Positions 10,318-52,396 of a stretch of 64,000 bases of DNA are shown here, piece by piece; the stretch's first letter is position 1, and every line of letters begins with the position of its first letter. The notes beneath the pieces are model-generated. The model saw nothing but the letters and a program-made list of their open reading frames with translations, was not told the origin of the DNA and did no database searches. Source of the stretch: an uncultured Bacteroidales bacterium (lineage in GTDB: Bacteria > Bacteroidota > Bacteroidia > Bacteroidales > WCHB1-69); NCBI GenBank assembly GCA_900315705.1, contig ONAB01000016.1, positions 1-64,000 of the forward strand, read 5' to 3'. The position numbers and the translations under genes were made by a program.

Positions 10318-10356
10318 CAACTCATGTACTTTTTTTACTGTTTTCCCAATTTTTAT

Positions 10357-10364
10357 TATTTTTG
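10357..10364 (+). promoter_or_regulatory. -7 promoter element for the membrane-protein gene at 10390
   Basis: TATTTTTG followed by CGG. The implied start point near 10371 lies after an alternative ATG at 10324, which supports the ATG at 10390. Confidence 0.5.
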
Positions 10365-10389
10365 CGGTTTCGAAACGGAAGGTTCACTT

Positions 10390-11844
10390 ATGATTAACGT
10401 AACCACTAAAATCCACGACAAGTTCTCTATCGAGTTCAAGGTCGGTTTCGCCGGCAGCGAACACGACAGCGTGAACGACTTCACGGTCAACTCGTGGATT
10501 TTCGTGCCCTACAGCTTGGACATCAACCCTTCCACATACGGCAAGGAGCAGTTCTACCGCGACGTGAAGTCGAACGTGCGCCTGATCACCCCCGAGTTCC
10601 GCCTTCAGGAGATGGTGGACGGCGAGAAGGTTCCCCTGCGGAACGTGCAGGACCTGCTGCAGAAATACACCGAACAACCCACCGAGACCAACCTCAGCGA
10701 GTATAACTTCCACGTCCGCCTCTTCGCCGCCATCTTCAAGAGCGCGCTGCGCAATGAGGTGCGCGAACTCCTGTCGCTCCACGACCCCGCCACCCTGGCC
10801 GACGGCTGCCGCCAGCTGGAAACGCGCGTCACACAGGTGCTTGAGCAATTCCGGGCCATCCGTACCACCAACACACCCCGCCCGAAAGTGGATGTGTTCT
10901 CCTACGCCGACGAGTATATGAGCCACCTGACGGACGTGCAGGTCACCCGTCTGGTGCGGCGCCTCCACAAATTGCACGCCCCAGAGACCGATACGGTCTG
11001 TGAGGCACTTACTCAATGGCTGCTGCAGGAACGCGCCTACAAAACCCAACGGGGCTACAGCCACCTGGAAGAGGACGGCAAGGCCGAGAACCGCGAGCTG
11101 GTGCTCCGCCACGGACTGCTGAAAAAGAACATCGAAAGCGCCCTCTACCTGAAGGCCGACACAGAACCCGACAGCCAAACCGCCCAGCAGCTGGTCTTCG
11201 GCATCGCCGCGGGCATTGCAATGTTCGTGTACGTGCTCATCACCCTGCCTCTGCAGGCCTATCTGGGCAACTACCCGATGCTCATCCTGGCCATCCTCGT
11301 CATCTCCTACATTCTCAAAGACCGTATCAAGGAGTACTTCCGGGCGCGCTTCGCCTACCGGCTCAAGGACAAGTACTTCGACAGCAAGACCCTCGTCCAG
11401 TTCAAGGGCACGCAGATAGGATGGATGAAGGAGGGCGTGGACTACATCGACGAGAGCAAAACGCCCGAGAAGGTGCTCACGCTGCGCAAACGCTCCAGTC
11501 TGGAGGCCGACAACACGCTTCTGGGCGAGCAGACGCTCCTCTACCGCAAACAGGTACACATCGACAACGAGCAGCTGCGGAACCAATACCGCTACGCCTT
11601 TTCTGGCATCCACGACATTATGCGCCTCCACATCCAGCATTTCACGCTGAAGATGGACGACCCCGACCTGGCACTGGACGCCATCAACCCGCAGGGCGAG
11701 CTGCAGACCATACACACCCAGCGCATCTACCCGCTGTACGTCGTGCTGCAGTTCATCCATAACGAACAAACCGAATACCGTTCCTTCCGCATCACCGCCA
11801 CCCGCAACGGCATCGTGGAATGCGTGGAGAACCCGGTTTCATAA
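10390..11844 (+). CDS. Unknown protein with two C-terminal-half membrane segments
   Basis: 484 residues, start MINVTTKIHDKFS at 10390. The N-terminal ~270 residues are soluble, hydrophilic and charged. Two hydrophobic helices follow (about 275-320: FGIAAGIAMFVYVLITL and LILAILVISYIL). About 165 more residues with KxR-rich segments follow. I recognise no known domain. The next gene, a membrane-anchored zinc peptidase, is 45 bases downstream in the same direction and may be co-expressed. Confidence 0.75.
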   Translation: MINVTTKIHDKFSIEFKVGFAGSEHDSVNDFTVNSWIFVPYSLDINPSTYGKEQFYRDVKSNVRLITPEFRLQEMVDGEKVPLRNVQDLLQKYTEQPTETNLSEYNFHVRLFAAIFKSALRNEVRELLSLHDPATLADGCRQLETRVTQVLEQFRAIRTTNTPRPKVDVFSYADEYMSHLTDVQVTRLVRRLHKLHAPETDTVCEALTQWLLQERAYKTQRGYSHLEEDGKAENRELVLRHGLLKKNIESALYLKADTEPDSQTAQQLVFGIAAGIAMFVYVLITLPLQAYLGNYPMLILAILVISYILKDRIKEYFRARFAYRLKDKYFDSKTLVQFKGTQIGWMKEGVDYIDESKTPEKVLTLRKRSSLEADNTLLGEQTLLYRKQVHIDNEQLRNQYRYAFSGIHDIMRLHIQHFTLKMDDPDLALDAINPQGELQTIHTQRIYPLYVVLQFIHNEQTEYRSFRITATRNGIVECVENPVS

Positions 11845-11889
11845 AATAGTCTATTATCAATCTTATTATTAACTTTAAAAACTAAAACA

Positions 11890-12747
11890 ATGGATTTAGA
11901 AGGAAGAAGAGAAAGTACCAACGTCGAAGACCGACGCGGAAAAAGAGCGGCAGGTGTCAGTTTGGGCATCGGCGGCACCATCATCGTGGGTCTCATCGCC
12001 CTCCTGATGGGCCGTAACCCCTCCGAAGTGCTGAAGACCGTGAACAATGCCACCGGCGGCAGCCAAACCGAAAGCAACTACACACCTACTGCCGAAGAAG
12101 AGGAGCTGGCCTCTTTCACCAAGAAGATTCTTGCCAGCACCGAGGATGTGTGGAGCGCAGAGTTCAAGAAAATCGGCCAGCAATACGTCCCGCCCAAACT
12201 GGTGATGTTCACCGGCCAGGTGCAGTCGGGCTGCGGCAACGCCACCGCTGAAGTCGGCCCCTTCTACTGTTCCGCCGACCAGACGGTTTACATTGACCTC
12301 TCGTTCTTCTCCACGATGCGCCAGTCGCTCGGCGCCGACGGTGACTTCGCATACGCGTACGTCATCGCCCACGAGGTAGGCCACCACGTGCAGAACCTGC
12401 GCGGCACCCTCTCGCAAGCCCACCAGAAGATGGCCCAGGTAAGCCAAAAGGAGAGCAACCAGATCAGCGTGCGCATTGAGCTGCAAGCCGACTACTACGC
12501 CGGCGTATGGGCCCACCACGAGAACGCAATGTTCAAATCACTGGACGATGGAGATCTTGAGGAGGCCATCAACACCGCATCTGTCATTGGCGACGACTAC
12601 CTGCAGAAGAAGGCCCGCGGGTATGCCACGCCCGAGTCGTTCAACCACGGCACCTCCAAGCAACGTATGAAATGGCTCAAGAAGGGTTTCGACACCGGCG
12701 ACATCAACGGCGGCACCACCTTCCAAGGCAGCTACAGCGACCTTTAA
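11890..12747 (+). CDS. Neutral zinc metallopeptidase, YpfJ/KPN_02809 family
   Basis: 285 residues. One N-terminal membrane helix (about 22-42, GVSLGIGGTIIVGLIALLMG) places the rest outside the cytoplasm. The zinc motif HEVGH is at residues 161-165 and is followed by VQN. The typical segment CGNATAEVGPFYCSADQTVY precedes it. The family is annotated as a putative neutral metallopeptidase with unknown substrates. Length is family-typical. Confidence 0.9.
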   Translation: MDLEGRRESTNVEDRRGKRAAGVSLGIGGTIIVGLIALLMGRNPSEVLKTVNNATGGSQTESNYTPTAEEEELASFTKKILASTEDVWSAEFKKIGQQYVPPKLVMFTGQVQSGCGNATAEVGPFYCSADQTVYIDLSFFSTMRQSLGADGDFAYAYVIAHEVGHHVQNLRGTLSQAHQKMAQVSQKESNQISVRIELQADYYAGVWAHHENAMFKSLDDGDLEEAINTASVIGDDYLQKKARGYATPESFNHGTSKQRMKWLKKGFDTGDINGGTTFQGSYSDL

Positions 12748-12773
12748 GCCACTTCCAAAATTGCAACCAACAA

Positions 12774-12811
12774 AAAGCCCGACGAACATCTGTTCGCCGG
12801 GCTTTCTTTTT
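12774..12811. terminator. Bidirectional terminator between the peptidase and carbamate kinase genes
   Basis: AAAGCCCGACGAACA at 12774-12788 pairs with TGTTCGCCGGGCTTT at 12791-12805 with one mismatch, flanked by A's and followed by T's. It serves two convergent genes. Confidence 0.85.
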
Positions 12812-12833
12812 ATTCAAAGATTCAGGAATTCTT

Positions 12834-13787
12834 TTATGCTTTGTCGGGGACAATACGGGTGCCGCAGGCGTCATCGCCCAAGCGGCCGGCCTCTGTGATG
12901 ATGCAGGTGTGGCCCGTTTTCTCCACAAACATAATGGCCGCCCGCATTTTAGGGGCCATAGAGCCTTCGGTGAACTGTTTCTCCTCCAGGTATTTCTTGG
13001 CTTCGGACACAGTGACCACGTCCAGAGCCTTCTCGTCCGGTTTGCGGAAGTTGATATAGACTTTGGGCACATCGGTGAGGATGTAGAACTCGTCGGCATC
13101 GATCTCCACTGCCGTGATGGCGGAGGCCAGATCCTTGTCGATAACCGCCTGCACGCCTTGCAGATAGCCATCGATATTGGCCACGGGGATGCCGCCGCCG
13201 CCCACGGTGATCACGATGATACCCTGGTCGGCCAACTGGCGCACCAGCTTGATATTCTGGATGCGGATGGGCTTCGGGGAGGCCACCACCTTGCGCCAGC
13301 CATTACCCTTCGGGTCCTCTTTGTAGATGTCGCCCGTCTCCTGATGATAGGCCTCGGCCTCTTCCTTGGAGCAATAGGGACCCACGGGCTTGGTGGGGTT
13401 CTTGAAGAGCGGGTCGTTGGCGTCCACTTCCACGTGGGTGAGCAGCGTCACCGTGTCGCGGTCCCAGCCCTCTTCGGCGAAAATGCGGCGGAAGCCCTCT
13501 TCAATAAGGGCGCCGATGGAGCCTTGCGTCTCGGCCACGCAGAAGTTCAGGGGCATATCCGCCACCTCATAGGTCTCTGCGCCAGCCTTGTGCTGCAACA
13601 TCACGTTGCCCACTTGCGGGCCGTTACCGTGGCCAATGACCATACGATAGCCAGCCTTCATCATCGGAACCAGACAGCGACAGGTCTCCGTCACGTTCTG
13701 AATTTGTTCAGCGTAGGTGCCTTTTTGATTGCTTTTCAACAAAGCATTGCCGCCAAAGGCAATAACGGCGAGTTTGTTTTGTGTCAT
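12834..13787 (-). CDS. arcC: Carbamate kinase
   Basis: Makes ATP from carbamoyl phosphate and ADP, usually the last step of arginine or citrulline breakdown. The 317-residue product has FGGNALL near residue 10, GHGNGPQVGN near 52 and the ITVGGGGIPV segment near 192, as in the family. No arcA or arcB is in the window, so here it may serve another carbamoyl source. It lies 54 bases after the M13 peptidase gene on the same strand. Confidence 0.95.
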   Translation of the reverse strand: MTQNKLAVIAFGGNALLKSNQKGTYAEQIQNVTETCRCLVPMMKAGYRMVIGHGNGPQVGNVMLQHKAGAETYEVADMPLNFCVAETQGSIGALIEEGFRRIFAEEGWDRDTVTLLTHVEVDANDPLFKNPTKPVGPYCSKEEAEAYHQETGDIYKEDPKGNGWRKVVASPKPIRIQNIKLVRQLADQGIIVITVGGGGIPVANIDGYLQGVQAVIDKDLASAITAVEIDADEFYILTDVPKVYINFRKPDEKALDVVTVSEAKKYLEEKQFTEGSMAPKMRAAIMFVEKTGHTCIITEAGRLGDDACGTRIVPDKA

Positions 13788-13841
13788 AAAAAAATTGTAT
13801 GGGATTTAGGGAGAGCGCCAATGCTGCTCTCCGGTGAATAA

Positions 13842-15908
13842 TTACCAGATTTTAGCGCGCTTGGAGGGTTCGAGCCACATCGGGTCGCCCTTCTTGATGC
13901 CGAAAGCCTCATAGAAGGCGTCGATATGCGGCAGGGTGCCGTTCACACGCCACATTCCCAAGGAGTGCGGGTCGGTCTTGGTGCGGCGGAGTATCTCCTC
14001 CGGACGGATGTTGTTGGCCCAGACGGCGGCATACGCCAGGAAGAAACGCTGCTCGGGGGTGAAACCGTCCATATCGCCCTTGATTTTCCCCTCCTGCTTG
14101 GCCTTCTGCATTGCAGTGTAGGAGACGTTGAGACCACCGTTGTCGGCGATGTTCTCACCCAAGGTGAAGGAACCATTGCCATAGACGCCAGGAGCCACCT
14201 CAATGGCATTGAAGTGATCAACAATCAGCTGGGCGCGTTCCTTGAAAGCATCGGCATCTTCGGCAGTCCACCAGTCGGTCAAGTTACCCTTGGCGTCATA
14301 GTTGCGGCCCTGGTCGTCAAAGCCGTGCGTCATCTCGTGCCCGATGACCACGCCGATAGCGCCGTAATTGGCGGCATCATCCGCATTCATATCAAAGAAC
14401 GGGGGTTGGAGAATACCTGCCGGAAAGCATATCTCATTGGTATTGGGCTCGTAATAGGCATTGACGGTCTGCGGAGTCATCAGCCATTCGGTGGGATCCA
14501 CCGGCTTGCCGATCTTGGCCAGTTCGTAGGCGGTCTCGAAACGGCGGGCGCGCACGACATTGGCATAGTAGCTGTCGTTGAGAATCTGCAACGCACTGTA
14601 GTCGCGCCACTTGTCGGGATAGCCAATCTTCACGCGGAAAGAGGCCAGTTTCTCAAGAGCGTTCTTCTTGGTGGCATCGGTCATCCAAGGGGATTGCTTG
14701 ATACGCTCGCCGAGGGCCCATTGCAGGTTCTTGACGAGCTGCTCCATACGGGCCTTGGCCTCAGCGGGGAAGTAGGCCTTCACATACATCTGGCCCAGGG
14801 CCTCGCCCAACGTGCCGTTCAGCGTGCCGACAACGCGTTTCCAGCGCGGACGGTTCTCCTGCTGGCCGGAAAGCGTCTTGCCATAGAAGTCAAAGCGGGC
14901 ATTCACGAACTCGTCGCTCAAATAGGGCGCTGCGCCGTTGATGACCTGCCAAGCCATATAAGCTTTCATTACCTCCCAGTCGGAGATGGAGAGCAGGCGA
15001 TTGAGCGCGCTGAAATAGGTGGGCATACCCACATTGAGCGTGTCCAATTTGAGGTTCAGCACCTTGAGATATTCATTCAGGTTGACGGCGGGAATGGTCT
15101 TCTGCAAATCATTCACGGTGCATTTGTGGATGGTCTGATAAGGATCACGGAGCACGACTTTGTCGATAAATGCCTCTGCCATACAACATTCCAAATCGAG
15201 CACACGCTGAGCCATCTCTTTCTCTTGTTTCTCAAAGCCAGCCAGTTTGCTGTAGCCAGAGATGCTGAACATCTTGGCCATCAACTTGCGGTATTCATCG
15301 CGGATTTTCTGCTGGTCGGCATCCAGATAATAGTCACGGTCGCCCATACCGAGGCCGCTCTGCCAGAAGTGGGCGATGGTCATACGGCTGTCGTCAGGAT
15401 CGGAGGAACCGTAGATGCCGAAGAAGCAGGAGTGGCCCTCCAGAAGCATCTCGGCCAACTGGGTGGAGAGTTGTTTGCGCTGGAGGCGTGCAATCTTCTG
15501 CAACTCCGCCTGGATGGGCTGGTTTCCCTGACGCTCCAGTTGCTCCGTGTTCATACCTATATTATAAAGGTCACCCAATTTCTGTTCCACCGTGCCGGGG
15601 GCATTCTTCTGGGCAGCCAGCTTGGTCACCAAATCCTGCAACTGCTTCTGGTTGTTTTCACCCAGCTGATCGAAGTTGCCATAACGGGCATATTCCGCGC
15701 CCAGGGGATTGAGTTTCATCCATCCGCCACAAGCGAACTGATAAAAATCGACATTGGGCAGGACGGTCCGGTCCAGATTGGTCAGGGTCACGCCGGATTT
15801 CTGTTTTTTGGGCTTTCCTTTGGTAGTCATAGTTTCAAAACTCGTGAGAATAAAAAAACAAAGTACCAATGACAAAGTTGTTAAAGCATACTTTTTCATA
15901 GATATCAT
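13842..15908 (-). CDS. M13 family metallopeptidase (neprilysin/PepO-like)
   Basis: 688 residues. Zinc motif HEMTH at 524-528 and the downstream glutamate motif GENIADNGGL are both present, as are the N-terminal DFYQFACGGW and the C-terminal PHIDAFYEAF. An N-terminal hydrophobic segment suggests secretion. The ATG at 15899 (MKKYALTTLSLVLCFF) is an equally good start and gives a cleaner signal peptide. It probably degrades peptides in the periplasm. Confidence 0.93.
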   Translation of the reverse strand: MISMKKYALTTLSLVLCFFILTSFETMTTKGKPKKQKSGVTLTNLDRTVLPNVDFYQFACGGWMKLNPLGAEYARYGNFDQLGENNQKQLQDLVTKLAAQKNAPGTVEQKLGDLYNIGMNTEQLERQGNQPIQAELQKIARLQRKQLSTQLAEMLLEGHSCFFGIYGSSDPDDSRMTIAHFWQSGLGMGDRDYYLDADQQKIRDEYRKLMAKMFSISGYSKLAGFEKQEKEMAQRVLDLECCMAEAFIDKVVLRDPYQTIHKCTVNDLQKTIPAVNLNEYLKVLNLKLDTLNVGMPTYFSALNRLLSISDWEVMKAYMAWQVINGAAPYLSDEFVNARFDFYGKTLSGQQENRPRWKRVVGTLNGTLGEALGQMYVKAYFPAEAKARMEQLVKNLQWALGERIKQSPWMTDATKKNALEKLASFRVKIGYPDKWRDYSALQILNDSYYANVVRARRFETAYELAKIGKPVDPTEWLMTPQTVNAYYEPNTNEICFPAGILQPPFFDMNADDAANYGAIGVVIGHEMTHGFDDQGRNYDAKGNLTDWWTAEDADAFKERAQLIVDHFNAIEVAPGVYGNGSFTLGENIADNGGLNVSYTAMQKAKQEGKIKGDMDGFTPEQRFFLAYAAVWANNIRPEEILRRTKTDPHSLGMWRVNGTLPHIDAFYEAFGIKKGDPMWLEPSKRAKIW

Positions 15909-15960
15909 TCTGATTTACAGTGTTATAAAAATAAAAACACCTCCCTAAGGAGATGGGCGG

Positions 15961-15968
15961 CAAAGGTA
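15961..15968 (-). promoter_or_regulatory. -7 promoter element for the M13 peptidase gene
   Basis: Minus-strand TACCTTTG, a TAnnTTTG match 52 bases upstream of the ATG at 15908. Confidence 0.45.
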
Positions 15969-16063
15969 CACATTATTTTGGATTTCCCGCTGTTTTTTCC
16001 TAAAAAAACTACAGAAAATCACCATTTTGGACTTTTGCGCCCAATGTCGGGAAAACGTCAATT

Positions 16064-18319
16064 CTAACTGATGTCGTACCCTATGCGCTCCACCGTCTCC
16101 AGCTGGTCGATACCACGGAGTTTCTCAATGAGGTCGGTGAGGGCACGCACACTCTGAATGTAAAACATCATCGTTCCGGAGAAGACATTGTTCTTGGCTT
16201 CGATATGAATAGAGCGCATATTGAGGTCCATCTGGGAGGAGACAATCTCAATGATTTCCATCAACATACCCTTGCGGTCGAAACCGGAGAAGCGGATGCC
16301 CGACAAGAAGGCAATGTTCTGGCCCTTGCGCCATTTGGTCTTGATGATACGCTTGCCGAACTTGGACATCTGCTCGATGGCGTTGGGACAGGAGGTCTGG
16401 TGGATGACAATCTTGTCGTCGGCCACCTGGAAGCCCACCACGTGGTCACCCGGGATGGGGTTGCAGCAGTCGGCGAGCACATACTTAATGCGTTCGTAGT
16501 CGTTGTCGAGCAGGAAAGCCGTCGGAGTGGTGGTGAACTGCTCATCGATGAGCTCGTCCAAAGATTTGTTGGCAATTTCCTCCTCGATTTTCTTCTGAAA
16601 CTCCGCCAGTTCCTTGGGCTGTTTCATCGCCAAGATCTTGCGGATCTTGTTCTTGGAAATCTTGTGAGTGACAATATTGTTCCAAAACTCGTCCCTGGAC
16701 TTGGTAAGCGTGGCGGTCTCTATTTTCTCCACATTTTCCGGTGTGTATTCCACGTCGAACTCTTTGAAATAGCTTTGGAGCAGTTCTTCGCCGGCAGCGT
16801 TGATATTGGTCTGCTCACTTCTGAGGAAATCGCGGATGCTGCGGCGGGCGCGCGCCGTGTGCACCACATTCAGCCACTCGGGCTTGGGGATTTGCTTCTT
16901 GGATGTGATAATCTCCACCTGGTCGCCATTGGAGAGCACACGGTCGAAGGGGACGATATTGTAGTTGACCTTGGCACCGATGCAGTGGTCGCCCAGGTTG
17001 GTGTGGAGCTGATAGGCCAGGTCAAGCACTGTGGAACCGGCGGGCAGGGTGCGCATATCGCCCTTGGGGGTGAACACGTAAATCTCCTTGAGGCCGAGGT
17101 TGAGCCGCACCTCGTTGAGGAACTCCAAAGCGTCGGAATCCTGGCTCTTGAGGATCTCGCGCGTCTTCATCAGCCAGTCTTCCAGACGGTTGTCCATATC
17201 GCTGTCGGCGGTGGCGGCTCCGTCCTCCTTGTATTTGTAGTGGGCGGCAAGACCCTTCTCTGCAATCTCGTCCATCCGTTTGGAACGGATCTGCACCTCC
17301 ACCCATTTGCCCGCCTTGCTCATCGCGGTCAAATGCAGCGACTGGTAGCCATTGGGCTTGGGATGCGTCAGGAAGTTGCGGTCGCGGGAAGGATTGGTCG
17401 GATAGAGCAGACACACAATCTTGTAGATTCTCCAGCAAATCTCAAACTCCTGCTCCACGGGACTGTCGAACACAAACCGCACGGCGAAGATGTCGTAAAT
17501 ATCCTCGAACTTCACGTTCTTGTTCAGAATCTTCTGGTAGATGGAATAGACTGACTTGGTGCGGGAGGACATCGTGGCTTTGATACCGTTCTCCTCCAAC
17601 GACTCCTGGATAGGTTTTACAAACTCAGCGATAAGTTGCTGGCGCTCCTCGTCTGTCTCCTTCAACTTGTTGGCGATAGAGTAATAGTCCACGGGGTCCG
17701 TGTATTTCATCGCATAGTCTTCCAACTCGCTCTTGATGGTATAAAGACCCAACCTGTGCGCAAACGGCACATAGAAATAGGAGGTCTCAGAGGCAATCTT
17801 GAGCTGTTTTTCCGGCGGCATCGCATCCAGCGTGCGCATATTGTGCAAGCGGTCGGCCAACTTGATGAGGATGACGCGGATGTCTTTCGACATCGAGAGG
17901 AATATCTTCTTGAAGTTCTCGGCCTGTATTGACTGGCTCTTGTTGTCGAAGACCAGGTCGTCGATCTTGGTGAGGCCGTCGATGATTTCCGCCACCACAT
18001 CACCGAAGAGCTCGCGGATATCTTCGAGGGTGTAGTCGGTATCCTCCACCACGTCGTGTAGCAAGGCGCAGATGACGGAGGTGGCGCCGAGGTTGATCTC
18101 CTTGCAGCAAATCAGGGCGACAGCAATGGGATGGTAAATATAGGGTTCACCGCTCTTGCGCCGCGTGCCGTTGTGGGCATTGGTGGCCAGCACGAACGCC
18201 TTGCGGATGTTTTTTCGCTCCTCGGCATTGGTCTTCGGCCACAGCACCGTCAACAGTTCACGGTATTTATGGACTATGGTCTTGTTTTCTAATACTTCGT
18301 TGGGTACGTATTCGGACAT
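16064..18319 (-). CDS. spoT: Bifunctional (p)ppGpp synthetase/hydrolase, RelA/SpoT family
   Basis: 751 residues from ATG 18319 (MSEYVPNEV); an upstream TTG is less likely. Order: HD hydrolase with RKSGEPYIYHP and HDVVEDT intact, so hydrolase active; synthetase with GYQSLHLTA; TGS domain (VFTPKGDMRTLPAGST); helical region; C-terminal ACT domain. It sets stringent-response alarmone levels in the cytoplasm. The gene follows the subtilase gene by about 40 bases and may share its transcript. Confidence 0.95.
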   Translation of the reverse strand: MSEYVPNEVLENKTIVHKYRELLTVLWPKTNAEERKNIRKAFVLATNAHNGTRRKSGEPYIYHPIAVALICCKEINLGATSVICALLHDVVEDTDYTLEDIRELFGDVVAEIIDGLTKIDDLVFDNKSQSIQAENFKKIFLSMSKDIRVILIKLADRLHNMRTLDAMPPEKQLKIASETSYFYVPFAHRLGLYTIKSELEDYAMKYTDPVDYYSIANKLKETDEERQQLIAEFVKPIQESLEENGIKATMSSRTKSVYSIYQKILNKNVKFEDIYDIFAVRFVFDSPVEQEFEICWRIYKIVCLLYPTNPSRDRNFLTHPKPNGYQSLHLTAMSKAGKWVEVQIRSKRMDEIAEKGLAAHYKYKEDGAATADSDMDNRLEDWLMKTREILKSQDSDALEFLNEVRLNLGLKEIYVFTPKGDMRTLPAGSTVLDLAYQLHTNLGDHCIGAKVNYNIVPFDRVLSNGDQVEIITSKKQIPKPEWLNVVHTARARRSIRDFLRSEQTNINAAGEELLQSYFKEFDVEYTPENVEKIETATLTKSRDEFWNNIVTHKISKNKIRKILAMKQPKELAEFQKKIEEEIANKSLDELIDEQFTTTPTAFLLDNDYERIKYVLADCCNPIPGDHVVGFQVADDKIVIHQTSCPNAIEQMSKFGKRIIKTKWRKGQNIAFLSGIRFSGFDRKGMLMEIIEIVSSQMDLNMRSIHIEAKNNVFSGTMMFYIQSVRALTDLIEKLRGIDQLETVERIGYDIS

Positions 18320-18358
18320 AACAAGCAAAAGGTTATAGGATAATGGTTGACAAGTATA

Positions 18359-20239: not shown

Positions 20240-20270
20240 AATTCCGATTATTAAATGGGATATTTCTATG

Positions 20271-21011: not shown

Positions 21012-21030
21012 CGTTCCGCCTCCGGGGGGG

Positions 21031-22158: not shown

Positions 22159-22184
22159 AGGTTTCAACTATTTTTTACGACTTG

Positions 22185-22192
22185 CAAAAATA
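22185..22192 (-). promoter_or_regulatory. -7 promoter element for dnaX
   Basis: Minus-strand TATTTTTG followed by CAAG, 27 bases upstream of ATG 22158. Confidence 0.5.
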
Positions 22193-22237
22193 GTCAAAAA
22201 AATGGATTGTTCCGTCAGGAGGAACAGAAAAAAAGGA

Positions 22238-23539: not shown

Positions 23540-23563
23540 ATTAGGGGATTCGGGGGGGGATAA

Positions 23564-41134: not shown

Positions 41135-41161
41135 ACACAATTCATAAAAATAAAACAGACG

Positions 41162-43608: not shown

Positions 43609-45146
43609 AAAAAAGAATCATCGTAACCCTCTTCTTCATCGTCGGCATCACCTCCATCTTGCTGATTCTCGCCATCTTCAAGCTATACACAGAGGCCGAG
43701 AAGGTGCAGCGCAGCATTTTCGTCAACGAAGTGCTCTCGGCCGGCGAGACCATTGTGGAGCGCATCGACGCCACCATCCTCAACGACACCCTGGACCTGA
43801 CGGTGACCGACACGGCCACCACGGTCACCGAAGAGACGGACTTCTCCGATGTGGTGTCGGAATTCCACACCCGCAAGTTCGTGCTCGACTCGGTCACCAA
43901 CCAACCCATCGGTGTCATCAAGTCGGTCATCTTTGTCAAGGAGAACAACAACCGCATTGTGGCCAACGACACCGAGTATTTCAGCGAGGCCTACCGCGAG
44001 CTGTTCCCGGTGGACAACGACCCCTGGTCGCCCAAAAACAAGGACTACCCCACCCGCAGTCTCAGCTTCACCGACGCCAACCTGGTGCAGTTGGACAGTG
44101 CCACCATACATCGGCTGAATGAGAACACACTGCGCGAGATCATCCGAGGCGCGCTACAGGAAGAGAATATCACCGCCCGTTTTGATTTCGCCCTCTACAA
44201 CGCCTTCACCACCGATTTCATCATCGAGCCGAAGACCATCAACTGCGAGCAAATCTTGCACAGCGAATATGTCTTCCGCCTGAAATACAACGAGAAGGTC
44301 AGCTCGCCGCATTACATCATCCTCTATTTCCCAGCTGAGCGCGGCATCTTCCTGCAACGGATGAGCACCATCGTCATCCTCATTCTCAGTCTCATCGTCG
44401 TCTGCTTCGCCATCTCCTTCGTGGCCCTGTACTCCCTTTACCGGCAGAAGAAGCTCTCCGAGGTGACCAACGAGTTCGTCAACAATATGACGCACGAGTT
44501 CAAGACACCCATCTCCACCATCTCGTTGGCGTGCGAGGCCCTCTCCGACCCCACCCTGCACAACGACGCCAACATCCGGGAGGCCTATATCAGCATCATC
44601 CGGGACGAGAACGACAGGCTCAAGAATATGGTCAACAACATCTTGCAAATCGCCCAACTCAAGAAGGGGCAGGTCAAGATGAACATCGAGATGCTGGATA
44701 TGCACGACCTTGTCCACAAGGTGGTGGACAGCGTTGCCCTACAAATCTCTTCGGCTAAGGGGTCTCTGAACTTAGCCCTCAACGCCGACGAGCACGAGCT
44801 TTTCGGAGACAAGTCGCATTTGCAGAATGTCATCATCAACCTAGTGGAGAATGGCATCAAATACTCGCAAGGGGCGCCCGAAATTCTCATCAACACCCAG
44901 TCAAACGGCAAGTATTTCCTGCTCTCCGTGACCGACAAAGGCATCGGCATCCCCAAGAAAGCGCTTCCGAGCATTTTCGAGAACTTCTACCGCGTGCCCA
45001 AGGGCAACGTGCACGACGTGAAGGGGTACGGACTCGGTTTGGGGTATGTCAAGAAAATCATCTCTCTCCATAAAGGAAAGATAGAAGTACAAAGTGAAGA
45101 GGGTAAGGGCAGCACCTTTATCATCTACCTGCCCTTGCACAAATAA
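43605..45146 (+). CDS. Membrane sensor histidine kinase (RprX-like)
   Basis: 513 residues from ATG 43605, which overlaps the previous stop (ATGA). Two membrane helices (about 7-28 and 255-278) bracket a ~225-residue sensor domain. The H-box HEFKTPIS has His297; the N-box reads NLVENGIKYS, and G-boxes DKGIGIP and GYGLGLGYVKKI follow. There is no response regulator next to it, so its partner must be encoded elsewhere. Confidence 0.92.
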   Translation: MKKRIIVTLFFIVGITSILLILAIFKLYTEAEKVQRSIFVNEVLSAGETIVERIDATILNDTLDLTVTDTATTVTEETDFSDVVSEFHTRKFVLDSVTNQPIGVIKSVIFVKENNNRIVANDTEYFSEAYRELFPVDNDPWSPKNKDYPTRSLSFTDANLVQLDSATIHRLNENTLREIIRGALQEENITARFDFALYNAFTTDFIIEPKTINCEQILHSEYVFRLKYNEKVSSPHYIILYFPAERGIFLQRMSTIVILILSLIVVCFAISFVALYSLYRQKKLSEVTNEFVNNMTHEFKTPISTISLACEALSDPTLHNDANIREAYISIIRDENDRLKNMVNNILQIAQLKKGQVKMNIEMLDMHDLVHKVVDSVALQISSAKGSLNLALNADEHELFGDKSHLQNVIINLVENGIKYSQGAPEILINTQSNGKYFLLSVTDKGIGIPKKALPSIFENFYRVPKGNVHDVKGYGLGLGYVKKIISLHKGKIEVQSEEGKGSTFIIYLPLHK

Positions 45147-45155
45147 ACGACCTGT

Positions 45156-45172
45156 ATGGGCTTCCGGCCCAT
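45156..45172. terminator. Weak hairpin between convergent genes
   Basis: ATGGGC at 45156-45161 pairs with GCCCAT at 45167-45172 around a TTCCG loop. No T-tract follows, so termination activity is doubtful. Confidence 0.3.
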
Positions 45173-45184
45173 CATTCGCATCGG

Positions 45185-46687
45185 CTATTCCTTCACCAGC
45201 TTGATGACGGTGGAGGCATTGGCGCCATTAACGCGAACTGCATACACACCGCGGGCACATTGGGTCAAGTCTATTTCAGCGCGACCCTCCGAGATGCGCG
45301 CGGACGTCACAAATTTGCCAAACATATCGTAAACGGAAGCCTCCCCTTCCAGAATGCCGGTCTCCAGCATCGCTTTGCCCGTCGTGGGATTGGGGCTAAC
45401 GACTGCCGTGGCGATTTGGTTTTCCGCAATGCCGACACTTCTCTTGCCCACTTCCACGTCATCCACATAGATACCTTCGGCATTGTATCCCATTCCGACA
45501 AAGGCAATCTGATAATTTTGGGAAGGGTTGGGCAGATTCACAATCTCTGTCTCCCACCCCTCAGTCGGAAGAGGAAAATATTCCAGCAGTTGCCAATTGT
45601 CATTGGAAGAGGATCTGTACCATACGGAAAGTTCGTCCACGTCGCTCGCACCTTGGGGTTGACGGCGCTTGAAAGTAAGAGTCGGCTGGGTCACCGAACT
45701 GATGTCGAGAGGACGTGACACCAACCTTGCCTCTCCGCCCAGCCAGATGAAAAAGGCGGTGTTGTTGGTGATAAGGTAACCCGGATCCACCACCCAGCCG
45801 TCGGTGCCCGAGACGATTTCCGAATGCCAACAGATGAAGTCTGACGAAGACTCGAAATCGTCGAGATAAGGGATCTGGTCGGTCACGACATACACATCGC
45901 AAAGGGTGATGAAGGTGATGGCAGTGGACCACTCCGATTGGTCGTCGGCGGCACAGTTAGCCCGCACCCGGAAGGTGTATTCGGTTTGCGGGGTCAGGCC
46001 CGTCATCACATAGGGCTGTGTGGAGACCACCGTCTCCTGACCGTTGAGTTCTATCGTCCAGCTGGTTTCATCACCGGTGGGCACCCAGTTTAGCTGCGCC
46101 GAGGTATGGGTGATATCGCCCACGCTCAAGCTGATAGGGCGGGCGCAACTGGACGTGGAGGCCACCTCCACATTGTCAACAAAGAGAAACAGGCCTCCCA
46201 AGCCGCGGCCGTTGAACGAAATCTGATAGGTGGATGTGAGCGACGGCAGCGTGTATGTCTGCTCAAAATAATTGGTATAGTCACTGACACTCAAGGTGCC
46301 CAACAGATGCCAAGCACTCGTGTCGGAGGTACGGTAAGCGACCTCCAGCACATCTTGGGTATATAAGGCGAGCATCGCGTAAGAGAAGTTCAGCGTGACT
46401 TCCGTGACGTTGGACATATCGAAGACAGGCGAGATGAGCCGTGCCTCATCGCCAGCATTCTGGTAGGAAAATGAGGCCACGGAGGATAGGGTGCCGGTTA
46501 TCTTGGCCCAGTTTCCACCGCCTGTGGTGTCCACCGTCCACAACGAGAATCCGTTTCCCTCAAAATCTTCGATGTACGACTGGTTATCCGTGATGGTGAT
46601 GACATTTTGGGCAGACAGCGAACCGGACAGGAGAATCCCCAAAACCGCTGTCAGCAACAATTTACCAAGAGAGTAGTTCTGTCTCAT
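45185..46687 (-). CDS. Secreted T9SS cargo with Fn3 and jelly-roll-like domains
   Basis: 500 residues from ATG 46687 (MRQNYSLGKLL). Signal peptide to about residue 27 (SLSAQ). Two MAM/carbohydrate-binding-like segments (YIEDFEGNGFSLW and YLDDFESSSDFICW) flank an Fn3 domain (INWVPTG-like strand and YTFRVRANC). The C-terminal type A sorting domain reads VSPNPTTGKAMLE ... GVYAVRVNG. No catalytic motif; it is likely an adhesin or matrix-binding protein. Confidence 0.88.
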   Translation of the reverse strand: MRQNYSLGKLLLTAVLGILLSGSLSAQNVITITDNQSYIEDFEGNGFSLWTVDTTGGGNWAKITGTLSSVASFSYQNAGDEARLISPVFDMSNVTEVTLNFSYAMLALYTQDVLEVAYRTSDTSAWHLLGTLSVSDYTNYFEQTYTLPSLTSTYQISFNGRGLGGLFLFVDNVEVASTSSCARPISLSVGDITHTSAQLNWVPTGDETSWTIELNGQETVVSTQPYVMTGLTPQTEYTFRVRANCAADDQSEWSTAITFITLCDVYVVTDQIPYLDDFESSSDFICWHSEIVSGTDGWVVDPGYLITNNTAFFIWLGGEARLVSRPLDISSVTQPTLTFKRRQPQGASDVDELSVWYRSSSNDNWQLLEYFPLPTEGWETEIVNLPNPSQNYQIAFVGMGYNAEGIYVDDVEVGKRSVGIAENQIATAVVSPNPTTGKAMLETGILEGEASVYDMFGKFVTSARISEGRAEIDLTQCARGVYAVRVNGANASTVIKLVKE

Positions 46688-46728
46688 ATCTTTATATTTA
46701 AGATTAAAGGATAAATTAATAGAGTGTG

Positions 46729-46736
46729 CAAATATA
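46729..46736 (-). promoter_or_regulatory. -7 promoter element for the T9SS gene at 45185
   Basis: Minus-strand TATATTTG followed by CACAC, 42 bases upstream of ATG 46687. Confidence 0.5.
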
Positions 46737-46756
46737 GGAAAAATGATTGTCAATGC

Positions 46757-49700
46757 CTATTGTTTGACAATTTTTCCAAAACCGACATAACGGCCATTCA
46801 CGGTCAGCTTCACCAAATAAAGGCCAGGAGCGAGGTCTTTCACACTCACCATCATCCTGTCGTCATCCATCTCGCTTTGCAAAACCAAACGCCCGTAAGA
46901 GTCAAACAGCCGGATCTCCTTCTTCATACTTGTCCATTCAGAACCCGTCTGCACGAAAATATGGTCAATGGCGGGATTAGGATAGAGCGTAATAATACCG
47001 TCTGCATTTTCCAAATCCTGGAGGCCCACACTCAGATAGAGTGTCACGGTTGAGTCGCAGCCGTACATATCCTGGAGCACCTTCGTGTAAACACCTGTGG
47101 TGTCGCACCAAATACCATTCCAGAAGAACGGAATGAAGGTGGTCATATAAATGGCGGTGTCAACAGGCTGGTGGATAGTCAGTTGGAGCGTTACAATGCT
47201 GTCGCAGCCCTCGGTGGTGGACAAGACGAACCGGTAATCTCCGGTGCTGGTATAGGTTTCACCCTGCCAGACAAAGGACTCGCAAGCATCGTAAACGAAG
47301 ACAGTATCGAAGGTTGTACAGAGCGGTGTGGTGAAGGCCACGTCGTTGCCGTAAGCCGTCCCGACACCGTTGGTGGCGTAGGCCCGCACATAGTAGGCCG
47401 TGGCAGGTTGAAGGTCAGTGAGGGTGACGCTAAAGGTGCCCGTATCGGAGCCCAATGCCAGATGAGAGCCCGCGATGGAGGGCATTGGAGATGTGCCCCA
47501 ACAGATGCCACGCTCGGTCACCGTGTCGCCACCGTTGTGGAGAACGGTGCCACCACAAAGGGCGGTATGCATCGTGAAAGCGGTAACCGCAGCGGTGCTC
47601 ACTCCGGGCAGGGAACGCTCCGCGATGTCGCGCACACAGCGCACCGACCGGCCCGGACTCACGAAATTACTGCAATAGAACGGGGAGAACTCGACGACAC
47701 TGTTTTGAATGACAGCGATATAGGGTTTCCCTGCCTGGAACTCAGTGGCGGCCCAGAAACTGGACTCATACCCCTTGTTGTAGGCTGTGTTGCTGGTATA
47801 GACACCGGCAGGATAAATCGTGAAACCGGAGAGATTGTTCTCTGCGGGCGCATAACCGGGAGAGCAAGGCACGGCGGAATAGTTCCAGCCGGTAGTGGAA
47901 GCCACAGCGCGCGCCTGCGCCGTGTCTCCGCCATCGCAATGGAATGCGGTGTTGCCGCAAAGGGTGTGGTAAAGTTGCTCCCACTCGGCAGCCGACGGCA
48001 CGTGCCACCCATCAGGGCAAATGCCTCTCACGCCGCTCGGACTGGCCGTGCTGCTCGTGTCACCGTGCATCACCGCCGGCCAGTTGTACAAATAGCCATA
48101 ATCCTCCACCAACGTGGAATCGTTGTCGGGAATATGACGGCACGGCGCCACATCGCTGTTCGTGGAACTCAACGGGATAGACGTGCCATCCGCATAATGG
48201 GTAGCGCGGATGTTCTGACGAGTCCAGCACTGGGTGCCCATAGCAATCGTCTGATAGACATTGCCGTCAAAATCGCTCACGGTTGATACACCACACTGGA
48301 ACGGAGCCTGGCCCGTCGTGGTAAAGGTCATCACCGGACCATAGGCCGTGACACCGTGGTTGTCGGTGGCGTATGCCCTGACACAATAGGTTGTGCCCGG
48401 CAGCAGGCCCACCATATTAGAGGTGAAAGAACCTGTACCCGAAGCGGAAGAGAGGAAATAGTCAGACAATGACGGGAAGGCATTCTGACTGCTCCAGCAA
48501 ACGCCCTTGTCCACAATGGAGTCATTGCCATAAACCAGCGCCATACCGCCGCACATTGCCGAGGTGTCGTTCACATTGGTGACAGGCAAGGTGCTGACAG
48601 AGAGGGAGAGGTCGCGCAAGCAGCGCACGGAGTACCCGAGACGCCTGTTGTTGGCATACCAGCTGGTGCTGAACTGGGCGTTATTATAGGCCAGCCGGAT
48701 AATTCTAGGCTTGCCGGCAGAATATTCGGTCGTGGACCACGCATAACTGTAATAGCTCAACCCACTGTAAGTGCCCGCGGAGAAGCGCCCCGCGGGGACG
48801 AATGAGAGGCCTGTCTCGTTGTTGGCCACCGGGTTGTCGCCGGGCGCGCAAGACACCGTAGAGCTGTGCCACCCGATTGTAGAGCACATTGCCGCCGCCG
48901 TGGAGGTGTCGCTGTCATTGCAGTGGTATGACGCCTGCGACTCCATAAAGTGCCTGAGGTCACGCAACTCGCTGTAACTGGGCAAATGCCATCCTGTGGG
49001 ACAAACGCCCTGCACGCCACTGGGCGAGGAAGTACTGGGAGCGCTCCCCCCCATCGCGGCACGCCAGTTGTAGAGATAGCCATTCTTGGCCACCAGGGAG
49101 GTGTCATTGTTGGGGGCATAGCGGTATGGAATAGTGGAACTCGTGTCACTGGAAGCAGCGATGGGGGTTCCGTCCGCATAGCGGGTGGCGCGCATATTCT
49201 CACGCATCCAGCACTGCTGGCCCACCTGCACGGTGTGGTACACATTCCCGTCAATGTCGGTAAGGGAGTCCACACCTTGGCAAGCCTGCACCGACTGCGG
49301 CACGCGCACCCCGATGATGGCAGCCTGCTGGGAGTTGAACTCGTATGTGGAAGGATTGAGGTTGTGCAGGAGAAAATAGCCGTTGTTGTTCCCGCTCCAG
49401 CCCCAGTTGAAATGGTAGTAGCCGTCTGTATCGTAGCCATCACACACGAAAGCGTGCCCACCCGCATCACCCTGGCCATTGTAATAGACTGGGCGCAAAC
49501 GGTCCAACTCCGTTTTAATGAGGAGGTTCCAAGCATCCGTGGAGTAACTGGAGCGGTTCACTCGCGTGCAATAGGGGTAACCGAAATAGGTCTGCAAGGC
49601 ATTCGGAACGTCTGAAGAATAGGAGCCGCTGCCCAGCGGGCCGTACATCATCTCCACACTGACACCGCAATGAAAGAGCAACTCGGCCACCGCGTGGACC

Positions 49701-50479
49701 TCAGCTGCCCCAGTGTTTGCCGTCAGCTGATTGGGCATCATATTGTACTGATAGGTCGTGTTGGCGAAATCGGCACTCAGAATGCCATAGTCGCCATAAC
49801 CCTGCCCGCTGTGGTCGGAGCTATAGCTGTGGCTTCCGATTCCTGAGGTGGGATACTGCCAGTACCGCATAATCTGTCCCATCGCCGTGGCCACGCAGCC
49901 CACGAAGGTATGGCCATTCGGTCCTCCCGTGTCCGCCGGGCACATATTGTTGTAATAAGCATTCTGGTTCCATCTTGTGGTCAGGAGTGGTCCCACCACC
50001 GCGACATTGCGGACCCCACGGGCATCTGCAGTGAGAGCTTCACGCCATTGCGGCACCAAAGGCTCCGCCATTGTAGGGTCTGACACTATCTGCGTAATCT
50101 CATCCACATACTCCTTCAGAAAAAAACGGATGTTGGCGGGCATTCCCTCCGCTTGGAAAGAGTCCTCCAGCGAATAGGCCAACACCGGTTGCACGCGGTC
50201 ATCGGCGGCCACCATCACAAAACCGGAACCTATATTGAAGACATAGAAAGCGTTGGCATTGCCACCCGCCCGGTTTGCCGGCAAAGTGGCCGTATAGACC
50301 AGCTGCGTGGCCGATGGGGCAGCAGAACGAAGGTGTTGGGTCTTACTGTCATAGAAAATCTCGGCCACCGTCTTGGCCGTCAATGTGTCCACAGGGCTTG
50401 CCTCTATCCTGACTGGATTTCCTGCCAGCACCAGGGAAAACAAAACCAGCAACAGGGTTCTATATCTTAATTTACTCAT
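46757..50479 (-). CDS. Secreted C10 cysteine peptidase with FISUMP modules and T9SS domain
   Basis: 1240 residues from ATG 50479. Signal peptide (~1-27); an N-terminal inhibitory propeptide of the Spi_C10 type (AFYVFNIGSGFVMVAADD, about 77-94); C10 peptidase with Cys195 in FVGCVATAMGQIMRYWQYP and His342 in GGHAFVCDGYD. Two FISUMP modules follow (DIDGNVYHTVQVGQQCW and DFDGNVYQTIAMGTQCW), each after or before Fn3-like stretches, then CDS-type modules (GCDSIVTLQLT) and a sorting domain (LYPNPAIDHIFVQ ... LYLVKLTVNGRY). It resembles streptopain/interpain proteases. Confidence 0.92.
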   Translation of the reverse strand: MSKLRYRTLLLVLFSLVLAGNPVRIEASPVDTLTAKTVAEIFYDSKTQHLRSAAPSATQLVYTATLPANRAGGNANAFYVFNIGSGFVMVAADDRVQPVLAYSLEDSFQAEGMPANIRFFLKEYVDEITQIVSDPTMAEPLVPQWREALTADARGVRNVAVVGPLLTTRWNQNAYYNNMCPADTGGPNGHTFVGCVATAMGQIMRYWQYPTSGIGSHSYSSDHSGQGYGDYGILSADFANTTYQYNMMPNQLTANTGAAEVHAVAELLFHCGVSVEMMYGPLGSGSYSSDVPNALQTYFGYPYCTRVNRSSYSTDAWNLLIKTELDRLRPVYYNGQGDAGGHAFVCDGYDTDGYYHFNWGWSGNNNGYFLLHNLNPSTYEFNSQQAAIIGVRVPQSVQACQGVDSLTDIDGNVYHTVQVGQQCWMRENMRATRYADGTPIAASSDTSSTIPYRYAPNNDTSLVAKNGYLYNWRAAMGGSAPSTSSPSGVQGVCPTGWHLPSYSELRDLRHFMESQASYHCNDSDTSTAAAMCSTIGWHSSTVSCAPGDNPVANNETGLSFVPAGRFSAGTYSGLSYYSYAWSTTEYSAGKPRIIRLAYNNAQFSTSWYANNRRLGYSVRCLRDLSLSVSTLPVTNVNDTSAMCGGMALVYGNDSIVDKGVCWSSQNAFPSLSDYFLSSASGTGSFTSNMVGLLPGTTYCVRAYATDNHGVTAYGPVMTFTTTGQAPFQCGVSTVSDFDGNVYQTIAMGTQCWTRQNIRATHYADGTSIPLSSTNSDVAPCRHIPDNDSTLVEDYGYLYNWPAVMHGDTSSTASPSGVRGICPDGWHVPSAAEWEQLYHTLCGNTAFHCDGGDTAQARAVASTTGWNYSAVPCSPGYAPAENNLSGFTIYPAGVYTSNTAYNKGYESSFWAATEFQAGKPYIAVIQNSVVEFSPFYCSNFVSPGRSVRCVRDIAERSLPGVSTAAVTAFTMHTALCGGTVLHNGGDTVTERGICWGTSPMPSIAGSHLALGSDTGTFSVTLTDLQPATAYYVRAYATNGVGTAYGNDVAFTTPLCTTFDTVFVYDACESFVWQGETYTSTGDYRFVLSTTEGCDSIVTLQLTIHQPVDTAIYMTTFIPFFWNGIWCDTTGVYTKVLQDMYGCDSTVTLYLSVGLQDLENADGIITLYPNPAIDHIFVQTGSEWTSMKKEIRLFDSYGRLVLQSEMDDDRMMVSVKDLAPGLYLVKLTVNGRYVGFGKIVKQ

Positions 50480-50509
50480 ATTCAATACTATATCATTAAA
50501 TACAAATTA

Positions 50510-51244
50510 TCAATTCAGGTCCCAGCAGAGCGACACGATGTCGCGATACGGGAAGCCGAGCAAGTCGGCGACCTCCTTATGGCACACCTCTCCACCATAG
50601 CAATAGACGCTCTCCATCAGGGCAGGGCGCTTCTGCAAGGCAAAACGGAAGCGCGAATTGCCCGCCAGCTCCGCCACCAGGGGCAGCAGGAAATTGGACA
50701 GGGCAATATTGAGAGCCGTCACGGAAAGCGTTTCCGTGAGGATACGGTCAACGACAGGGTTATCTTTGGCATCCCGGATGAAATTCATCGCCAGGGCGGT
50801 GATTTTCTTGTCGATGAGGCTTTGCACATACGCCTTGTCCAGCGCGGCGGCATCCTGGGTGGAGAAGATGATCTGCTCCTCCTTCATCAGGGCAATCTGT
50901 TCCGGGGTGAAGGGCATAAACTTCACCAGCACGCGAGCCATAGAGGCCAGCAGATAGAAATCGTCCACAAACTCGACCCCCACATCGGCATAGTCGGCAT
51001 CGGTATAGCGGGACCCTTGGGAGAATCCGTGCTGCATCATCACGTGGATGTCATCGTCCACGAGGGCCTGCACCGCAGCGGGGGTCATAATGACAAACTC
51101 GCCCACGGGAATCTCGTCCTTGACAAAGCCCACAGACAGCTCTTGCGTAGGGGTTTGCACCTGCACGGTCTGTTCCTGGGTGGCCAGGATGGTGTCGTCA
51201 TATAGAGGGTCGAAGGTCAACATAGGTATGGTTTTGTCTCTCAT
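50510..51244 (-). CDS. Alanine-dehydrogenase-like protein without the NAD-binding domain
   Basis: 244 residues from ATG 51244 (MRDKTIPML). The first ~165 residues match the AlaDH/PNT N-terminal domain (VGFVKDEIPVGEFVIMTPAAV; DADYADVGVEF). The last ~70 match the C-terminal end of alanine dehydrogenase (LSNFLLPLVAELAG ... YCYGGEVCHKEVADLLGFPY). The Rossmann domain between them, with its GGGVVG motif, is absent. It cannot bind NAD as known enzymes do. It lies just upstream of the C10 peptidase gene. Confidence 0.75.
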   Translation of the reverse strand: MRDKTIPMLTFDPLYDDTILATQEQTVQVQTPTQELSVGFVKDEIPVGEFVIMTPAAVQALVDDDIHVMMQHGFSQGSRYTDADYADVGVEFVDDFYLLASMARVLVKFMPFTPEQIALMKEEQIIFSTQDAAALDKAYVQSLIDKKITALAMNFIRDAKDNPVVDRILTETLSVTALNIALSNFLLPLVAELAGNSRFRFALQKRPALMESVYCYGGEVCHKEVADLLGFPYRDIVSLCWDLN

Positions 51245-51279
51245 ACGCAAAGGGCAAAAAACGCCCTAATACGTGCCTG

Positions 51280-51287
51280 CAAAAATA
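51280..51287 (-). promoter_or_regulatory. -7 promoter element for the AlaDH-like gene
   Basis: Minus-strand TATTTTTG followed by CAGG, 36 bases upstream of ATG 51244. A small AGGGC/GCCCT hairpin lies in the leader (51251-51267). Confidence 0.5.
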
Positions 51288-51316
51288 CAAAAAAGTCACT
51301 CAAAAAACAGCCACAG

Positions 51317-52396
51317 CTATCGACATTTTACATAATGCAGATACTCCACTGTACTATCTGCTGCGATACGTCTTGATTCAGATTCTTTATCCGCCTTAAA
51401 ACGATTATACGCCTGCTGAAAGAAACCATACTCACCACGAACAGACAAAATCTCACGAATCTCATCGAAAGACATCAGTCCTTCATTATTATAGCTCAAA
51501 AAAATATAACGAGCATCTGCTGCCTCTATCAGCTGTCGGAATGACTGCTTCACTTTAGTACGTGAACAGTAGTCCGATTTTTGGTTATTGCATCTCCTCA
51601 CACCTGTCTTGCCTGAAATTTCAGGATTATCATAGCGGGCAATGGTCTCTAACAAATGATAATTGCTTGAATACTGCCTATGATTATAAGGAGGATCCAT
51701 ATAAAGGACATCTGTGTGTATGCGTTTAACCAGTTCATTTGCATCCTCATTGAACACAAAATGCTCTTGGGCATTATAGACCATTTCGGCAGGTTTCATA
51801 ACCATTAGTTTAGCAGCTGACTTCTTTATTTTTTTCAAGAATGCCCCATAGACAGATGCGGTATTGGCGACCTTATCAATGTTTTCTATTAAGGTTGCCA
51901 ACAGGAAAAAATATTCGTTCTCTGTAACTTTCCCTTCTTTATGCCATCGCTCAATCTTTGTCCTGATAGCGTCACATTTCCCCCCATTCTCATCAGTAAA
52001 GTACAACCGATATTCATCTTCATCAGAATGTTGGCCCTTACAATAATTCCGGTAGATAAAACCTTCTATAGGATCAAGCATGTCAAGATAATTGCACACC
52101 TTAACGTCTCTCGTTTCATCACACGATTCTTCTTTAAGAGATGGTATTTCGTCTTTCAAACCATCAAACATCAGGACAGAATGATTCCCAATATATTGTC
52201 TGTTTAGCACATAACTATAATATTGAATATCGTTTGCTATAATTTGGTATCCTTTGGTTTTGAAATATTTACCCACTGCTCCGGTGCCCGCAAAAATATC
52301 ACAAAACACATTTGCTTGTTCATCATCAGCCGTCACCTGTTTGATACATTCATACAGGAAAGGCAGGAGTGTTTGCTTTGATCCGATATAATTCAT
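51317..52396 (-). CDS. N6-adenine DNA methyltransferase (D12/Dam class)
   Basis: 359 residues. MNYIGSKQTLLPFL and FCDIFAGTGAVGKYF are the SAM motifs, and DPPYNHRQYSSNYHLLET with DPPY at 234-237 is motif IV. It methylates adenine, probably protecting one strand of an asymmetric site. Last gene of the restriction-modification operon; 2 bases separate it from the previous gene. The AT-rich composition differs from its neighbours. Confidence 0.9.
   Translation of the reverse strand: MNYIGSKQTLLPFLYECIKQVTADDEQANVFCDIFAGTGAVGKYFKTKGYQIIANDIQYYSYVLNRQYIGNHSVLMFDGLKDEIPSLKEESCDETRDVKVCNYLDMLDPIEGFIYRNYCKGQHSDEDEYRLYFTDENGGKCDAIRTKIERWHKEGKVTENEYFFLLATLIENIDKVANTASVYGAFLKKIKKSAAKLMVMKPAEMVYNAQEHFVFNEDANELVKRIHTDVLYMDPPYNHRQYSSNYHLLETIARYDNPEISGKTGVRRCNNQKSDYCSRTKVKQSFRQLIEAADARYIFLSYNNEGLMSFDEIREILSVRGEYGFFQQAYNRFKADKESESRRIAADSTVEYLHYVKCR

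Follow-up and report, generated by a model that had tools for sequence, protein, structure and literature searches.

Near-complete loss of CATG in one Bacteroidales lineage and a neighbouring operon with a predicted CATG-specific restriction nuclease

Introduction

What removes one tetranucleotide almost completely from a genome and not from those of its relatives? The question is raised by a 64,000-nt stretch from an uncultured, gut-type Bacteroidales bacterium (GenBank assembly GCA_900315705.1, contig ONAB01000016.1, positions 1 to 64,000; hereafter the window), in which the palindrome CATG is nearly missing and which carries a four-gene restriction-modification operon, M1-R-X-M2, whose R gene encodes a nuclease of the ICEA/NlaIII family. 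We argue that the genome holding the window, G000, was in all likelihood purged of CATG by way of this operon, a horizontally acquired CATG-specific Type II system gained after the split from its nearest relative, G022. Restriction-site avoidance is a known phenomenon, usually seen as a correlation across many genomes; this is an unusually clear instance, limited to one lineage and with the predicted enzyme encoded close by, in which the operon, a relative free of the insert at that place, one branch and one word can be read together. Papers are cited by PMC number.

Results

CATG is scarce in the window and across the genome

The window holds 17 CATG where a maximal-order Markov model built from its own tri- and dinucleotides expects 264.6 (observed/expected ratio, O/E, 0.064), the lowest value among all 256 tetramers. 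An earlier sequence-only reading had arrived at the same 17 copies, against about 250 expected, and placed 16 of them correctly, the last one lying at 63400 and not at 63401. Direct counting also bore out the two CATG-free intervals that it described, 1-5260 and 10327-52078; between 10327 and 51250 no copy is found and 186.1 are expected. The same scarcity extends over the draft genome (G000; 2,995,600 bases in 47 contigs), where a 419-kb sample of 20 stretches, the window and 19 others (L008, reading as N, was dropped), has 171 CATG against 1733 expected (O/E 0.10). Whole-genome counts give 67 SSCATGSS against 387 of the reversed control word SSGTACSS, a ratio of 0.17.

The avoidance is legible in codon choice, as had been claimed from Ala-Met, Asn-Met, Ile-Met and Thr-Met pairs, and the counts agree with that claim. 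In 26 hand-listed open reading frames (ORFs; 13,052 codons, 13,026 of them with a following codon), a C-ending codon precedes none of the 308 internal ATG codons, though C ends 5,800 of the 13,026. Alanine ahead of methionine is written GCA 18 times, GCG 18, GCT 4 and GCC never (n=40), GCC being the top alanine codon overall in the same ORFs (572 of 968); likewise, all 75 histidines that stand ahead of a codon beginning with G are written CAC.

Palindromes in general might be scarce, or CATG might be shunned on account of a regulatory protein or a structural effect. Other palindromes are indeed low in the window (O/E of CTAG 0.21, GATC 0.52) and in the sampled G000 genome (0.12 and 0.41). However, both are also low in the stretches sampled from the two closest relatives, G022 and G003 (CTAG 0.04-0.06; GATC 0.54-0.55, slightly less so than in G000), and CATG, at 0.68-0.69, is not. 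The change concerns one genome of the genus and one word. When the 20 G000 stretches were compared with 8 stretches of G022 and G003 over 136 tetramers, 508 pentamers and 1978 hexamers, CATG had a z-score of -22, GATC of -4.0 and GTCGAC of -2.8; no second word outstanding enough to be a candidate target of M1 was seen among these 4- to 6-mers. The comparison with G022 and G003 and the z-scores rule out general palindrome scarcity, which the sequence-only reading had named as a possible refutation, and we hold the whole group of causes unconnected with restriction to be very improbable. The Markov comparison with relatives that the sequence-only reading had proposed shows the pattern of restriction-site avoidance: the site falls below expectation in the carrier genome, and relatives that lack the system do not share this.

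The loss is confined to one lineage and coincides with an ICEA gene

Among the 41 genomes of the genus, 24 of which reach 90% completeness with no more than 5% contamination, an ICEA gene was detected in one, G000, and this is the only one purged of CATG: the SSCATGSS/SSGTACSS ratio of the other 40 is 0.76-2.8 (median 1.73). The nearest relative, G022, was identified through a relA/spoT-like gene, 2.2 kb of which align at 85% identity. It has no cassette at the corresponding place, where the blocks matching the window up to 51205 and from 55258 are about 110 nt apart. The split from G022 (about 80% identity over the part of the window that aligns) came before the loss, which is therefore limited to one species-level lineage. 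The sequence-only reading had suggested long-term pressure from an NlaIII-like enzyme. The pressure is supported by the sole ICEA match of the genome lying in the window, by two methyltransferase genes alongside it and by the coincidence with CATG loss in 1 of 41 genomes; "long-term" has to be qualified, as the loss is younger than the split.

The restriction-modification operon

Four tightly packed genes on the minus strand, M1, R, X and M2, occupy positions 51317-55079 (Table 1). R matches PF05315 (ICEA) with E=1.1e-106 and 355.7 bits (cut-off 24) over positions 1-213 of 218, which places it in the family, and is the only such match in G000; none was found in 14 control genomes. The gene is intact, and its HNH-like DHKDGR motif and cysteine pairs are shared, with single exceptions, by the 23 relatives aligned with it (an alignment of 24). 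By analogy with HNH enzymes, these residues would be catalytic or bind zinc. The M1 ORF starts with TTG and has an in-frame ATG at 55049. A general statement on catalytic and zinc-binding residues of HNH enzymes is given in PMC4081073.

A nuclease and a methyltransferase as separate adjacent genes are the layout of an orthodox Type II system. PF05315 is the family of Helicobacter pylori IceA1, and IceA1 and NlaIII are named as CATG enzymes and HpyIM as a CATG methylase (PMC13340068, PMC10423294). By this homology R would be specific for CATG. M2, and perhaps M1, would be methyltransferases of the CATG-specific kind for which the sequence-only reading had proposed a search, and the G000 cassette is presumably active today. 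Searches of PDB sequences with R, X and M2 gave no credible relative, and a search of plasmids with R gave a single record, which matches 52% of R at 38% identity.

Table 1. Positions of the operon genes and of the regions discussed in the text (window coordinates)
Feature	Position	Strand	Remarks
M1, N6/N4-type DNA methyltransferase, 271-aa ORF	54264..55079	-	PF01555 4.2e-23; PDLC03351 2.7e-76
R, ICEA/NlaIII-family nuclease, 229 aa from ATG	53573..54262	-	PF05315; longest ORF 53573-54319
X, 389 aa, EVE-like N-terminal and NucS/PDDEXK-like C-terminal part	52399..53568	-	optional cassette member
M2, D12-like adenine methyltransferase, 359 aa	51317..52396	-	PDLC03257 4.9e-112; alignment with R neighbours in other genomes
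Segment absent from G022	51206..55257	.	HSPs to L141 and sequence of both sides compared
CATG-free 41.7-kb stretch	10327..52078	.	core DNA is 10327-51250; 51317-52078 belongs to the M2 gene; direct position count
Region with 6 CATG (18.4 expected)	5261..10330	.	surrounds a 1359-aa Ig-like protein with Por secretion tail
Lower-GC (0.453) region with RHS-type genes, 8 CATG (21.6 expected)	57401..64000	.	no G022 alignment; RHS_repeat and Rhs core matches

CATG was lost by selection

The alignment with G022 spans 37.9 kb at 80% identity, and the counts in this section cover the aligned part of the window only. A single one of the 176 CATG of G022 is kept in G000, the median word being kept in 43% of cases. 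At polarised sites, those with the same word in G022 and G003, none of 20 CATG was kept (95% upper limit of retention 0.14) against 4346 of 6418 (68%) over all words, figures that put a measure on the speed and the cost of life with a restriction enzyme.

Such erosion could in principle come about without selection if a methylated C in CATG deaminates, and C>T plus G>A changes are the largest group, 54 of the 151 single-base changes at lost CATG. Against this, 57 of the 151 change C or G by transversion and 40 fall on A or T, all four positions being affected (C 44, A 24, T 16, G 67), and the product of M.HpyI is reported as m6A, not m5C (PMC10423294). The spectrum excludes deamination of m5C as the main route, and we give a mutational bias practically no credence. 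The 154 coding CATG of G022 (24 ORFs) were all lost, 104 of them without an amino-acid change; synonymous loss per CATG site (0.675) exceeds that of all 12 control words (0.12-0.43), and amino-acid-changing loss (0.325) is near the top of the control range (0.15-0.33). Since the losses fall on all four positions and are mostly synonymous, their pattern is one of selection rather than deamination.

Of the 17 surviving CATG, 15 lie in the 25.2 kb of the window without G022 alignment and 2 in the 38.8 kb aligned. The leftover copies seem to label DNA that arrived after the purge, and might offer a sequence-only clock for horizontal transfer; this is a pointer only, because unaligned DNA is not always new.

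A model for the purge

The events would have run as follows. After the split from G022, the lineage would have gained the CATG-specific Type II operon (51317-55079) by horizontal transfer; we infer this direction of insertion, and self-cutting as the selective agent. M2, and possibly M1, would methylate the CATG of the host, and R would cut those left unmethylated, for example right after replication or upon dilution or loss of the genes. Each host CATG would then be a small lethal risk, so that mutations removing one, mostly synonymous, would be favoured and a new CATG would hardly become fixed. The end state would be near-total loss of CATG in vertically inherited DNA, with later arrivals still holding some.

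ICEA genes in other bacteria

A search of 105 genomes of the family, including G003-G042, found ICEA in three, one of them in the genus of G000, and a sample of the order found it in 4 of 393, 2 of these over the cut-off. The coincidence with CATG loss recurs in the family of G410, where this genome alone among nine carries ICEA and it alone is purged, with 11 SSCATGSS against 345 control sites; the other eight hold 190-913 SSCATGSS, the lowest being G541 with 190 against 290.

From a scan of named genomes we kept the best 80 of 97 confirmed relatives (L031-L110), whose titles include Bacteroidales, Alistipes, Helicobacter, Campylobacter, Treponema, Rodentibacter, Patescibacteria and others. 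In tblastn comparisons with the window genes, M1 was found at 70 of these 80 loci, X at 18 and M2 at 73, and M1, R and M2 together at 65; the unit moves as a cassette, with X as an optional member. Flanks could be scored for 69 loci, the 11 others having fewer than 10 expected CATG. Their O/E has a median of 0.43 and spreads from 0 to 1.4, with 21 loci below 0.1. Whole-genome ratios were obtained for a sample of 50 genomes (47 of the 80 loci, chosen mostly for length, minus one, plus four G-numbered genomes), of which 15 were dropped for having fewer than 100 control sites; among the remaining 35, 17 have a ratio below 0.2 and 7 of at least 0.76.

A rule by which all genomes with the system avoid CATG and all those without do not is contradicted by these data and by the genus of G512 treated below. 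This is no bar to membership in the class, because the published rate of avoidance is about half of cases (PMC4687349). The spread among carriers would fit differing residence times, an argument made for Type II systems in the same source, and it prompts the question of which factors set the cost of a restriction system for its host. Broken R genes are unsupported as a reason for non-avoidance, R being full length at 66 of the 69 loci. Loci without an M1 match are under 0.1 in 6 of 9 cases, against 15 of 60 with M1, a small sample uncontrolled for kinship; this gives a slight indication that the pressure from restriction may be eased by a second methyltransferase. Separately, one carrier, Helicobacter bizzozeronii (L100/G535), has an excess of CATG, with 38 in the flanks against 26.4 expected and 1006 SSCATGSS in the genome against 24 control sites.

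Did this operon or another system purge the genome?

Several observations weigh against the operon of the window as the agent of the purge. Sixteen of the 69 scored loci have a flank O/E of at least 0.78, that is, little or no avoidance, and GATC (0.31), CTAG (0.45) and GGCC (0.54) are low as well in the flanks of ICEA loci. Two genomes of the same family as G000, G001 and G049, carry ICEA at ratios of 0.81 and 1.08. In H. pylori, HpyIM is reported from every genome and CATG is its densest motif, with 9036 per Mb (PMC10423294); most iceA1 copies of this species are reported broken (PMC13340068). The cassette has a GC content of 0.363 against 0.546 in core DNA, which would fit arrival after the purge. 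Lastly, 22 of the 101 genomes in the Alistipes-like genus to which G512 belongs fall below a ratio of 0.2, and 20 of these 22 are without detected ICEA.

The last two points favour a different or earlier CATG-specific system as the one that purged the genome, the low-GC cassette being a later replacement or addition: the same pressure would have acted through another agent. Traces of lost systems are also reported in general (PMC4687349). Against it, the one genome of the genus with detected ICEA is also the one that lost CATG, the same coincidence recurs in the family of G410, and G000 has no second ICEA copy, a search that did not extend to CATG systems of other families. We consider such a replacement rather unlikely and continue to prefer acquisition of the present operon as the cause; the observation and the interpretation of the sequence-only reading hold overall, with cleavage of CATG by R predicted from its family.

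In the genus of G512, ICEA was detected in 2 of the 101 genomes, both among the 22 poor in CATG. Examples of SSCATGSS/SSGTACSS counts among the 22, which go down to a single SSCATGSS per genome, are those of G577 (1/155), G565 (3/246) and G587 (4/386). Of these, G587 (82 pieces, 1.54 of about 1.9 Mb) holds 153 CATG where 4278 are expected, and 326 of its 386 four-kb bins are free of the word; in the 1.54 Mb read we found no relative of M1, R or X and no other CATG system. M2-like genes (E<=1e-20) occur in 8 of the 101 genomes, 4 of them CATG-poor and two of those beside ICEA. A contig start cuts off the cassette of G589, leaving the end of X and M2, and R may therefore be lacking only from the assembly. 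The M2-like genes of G587 (two), G604, G612 and G619 sit in other gene contexts, and that of G597 adjoins a DpdB/DndB-like gene. Those of G587, G612 and G619 presumably belong to loci resembling FokI-type systems. Plain causes, such as missing pieces of assemblies or recently lost systems, could account for CATG loss in ICEA-negative genomes; that gut Bacteroidales harbour an unrecognised CATG-targeting system other than ICEA, which would explain the recurrent loss in this genus, is a possibility that we raise tentatively. G587 carries a different Type II system, presumably FokI-like (L169:5701-9025), with two D12 methyltransferase genes and an REase_II-type gene (PDLC03445).

Protein X

Among 16 copies of X that were scanned, 11 match EVE and 13 NucS_C, the best E-values among relatives being 3.4e-6 and 7.2e-5, respectively. 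The copy in the window matches weakly, below the Pfam cut-offs (EVE E 0.0062, NucS_C E 0.13). At the 18 loci with X its place varies: it lies upstream of M1 at some, and at others it separates M1 from R or R from M2. PMC7641849 describes EVE domains that read modified bases in restriction systems, and X is perhaps a nuclease for modified DNA, which would be a natural second arm of the cassette. X as the driver of the purge is unsupported: of the scored loci, 6 of the 17 that carry X and 15 of the 52 that lack it have a flank O/E below 0.1.

Comparison with known systems

The nearest known counterpart is HpyI (IceA1 and HpyIM) of H. pylori, where iceA1 adjoins hpyIM (PMC13340068), just as R is followed here by a D12-type methyltransferase; the G000 operon differs in adding M1 and the EVE- and NucS-like X. 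The two also differ in outcome, since CATG is purged in G000, whereas in H. pylori no methylated motif is denser, and iceA1 is reported to be broken in most copies (PMC10423294, PMC13340068). HpyI and NlaIII of Neisseria lactamica are likened to R by family, the sequences compared being those of other Helicobacter loci (L065, L067, L070, L093 and L100).

With the orthodox Type II avoidance treated in PMC4687349 our case shares a palindromic site, separate nuclease and methyltransferase genes and under-representation of the site in the host. Relative to the threshold of 0.78 used there, avoidance in G000 is far stronger (0.10 over 419 kb, in one genome of 41 in the genus). The same source ties low-GC cassette DNA to weaker avoidance; in G000 avoidance is strong despite a low-GC cassette. 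UpaP162 of Ureaplasma parvum is likewise a Type II enzyme acting on CATG and blocked by its own methyltransferase, but it is described as a blunt cutter without homologues, and we set it beside R by description only (PMC6191088). Similarly to the EVE-containing modification-dependent nucleases (PMC7641849, PMC7897488), X may join an EVE-like and a nuclease-like domain; its putative nuclease part, however, is NucS/PDDEXK-like and X is located in a Type II operon. No occurrence of NucS, IceA, NlaIII or "type II restriction" was found in PMC7641849. Among the matches listed from the open-licence literature there was no paper on CATG purging in Bacteroidales, which is not proof of absence.

Other features of the window

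Beyond the window, the following part of the contig (L027; G000:C4:64001-71183) also has lower GC and RHS-type genes, with 19 CATG against 39.1 expected. Together with 57401-64000 it forms an RHS region that keeps CATG and that was perhaps acquired after the purge. Positions 46757-50485 (minus strand) encode a 1242-aa protein with a C10 peptidase, an inhibitor I69, two Fib_succ_major stretches and a Por secretion tail.

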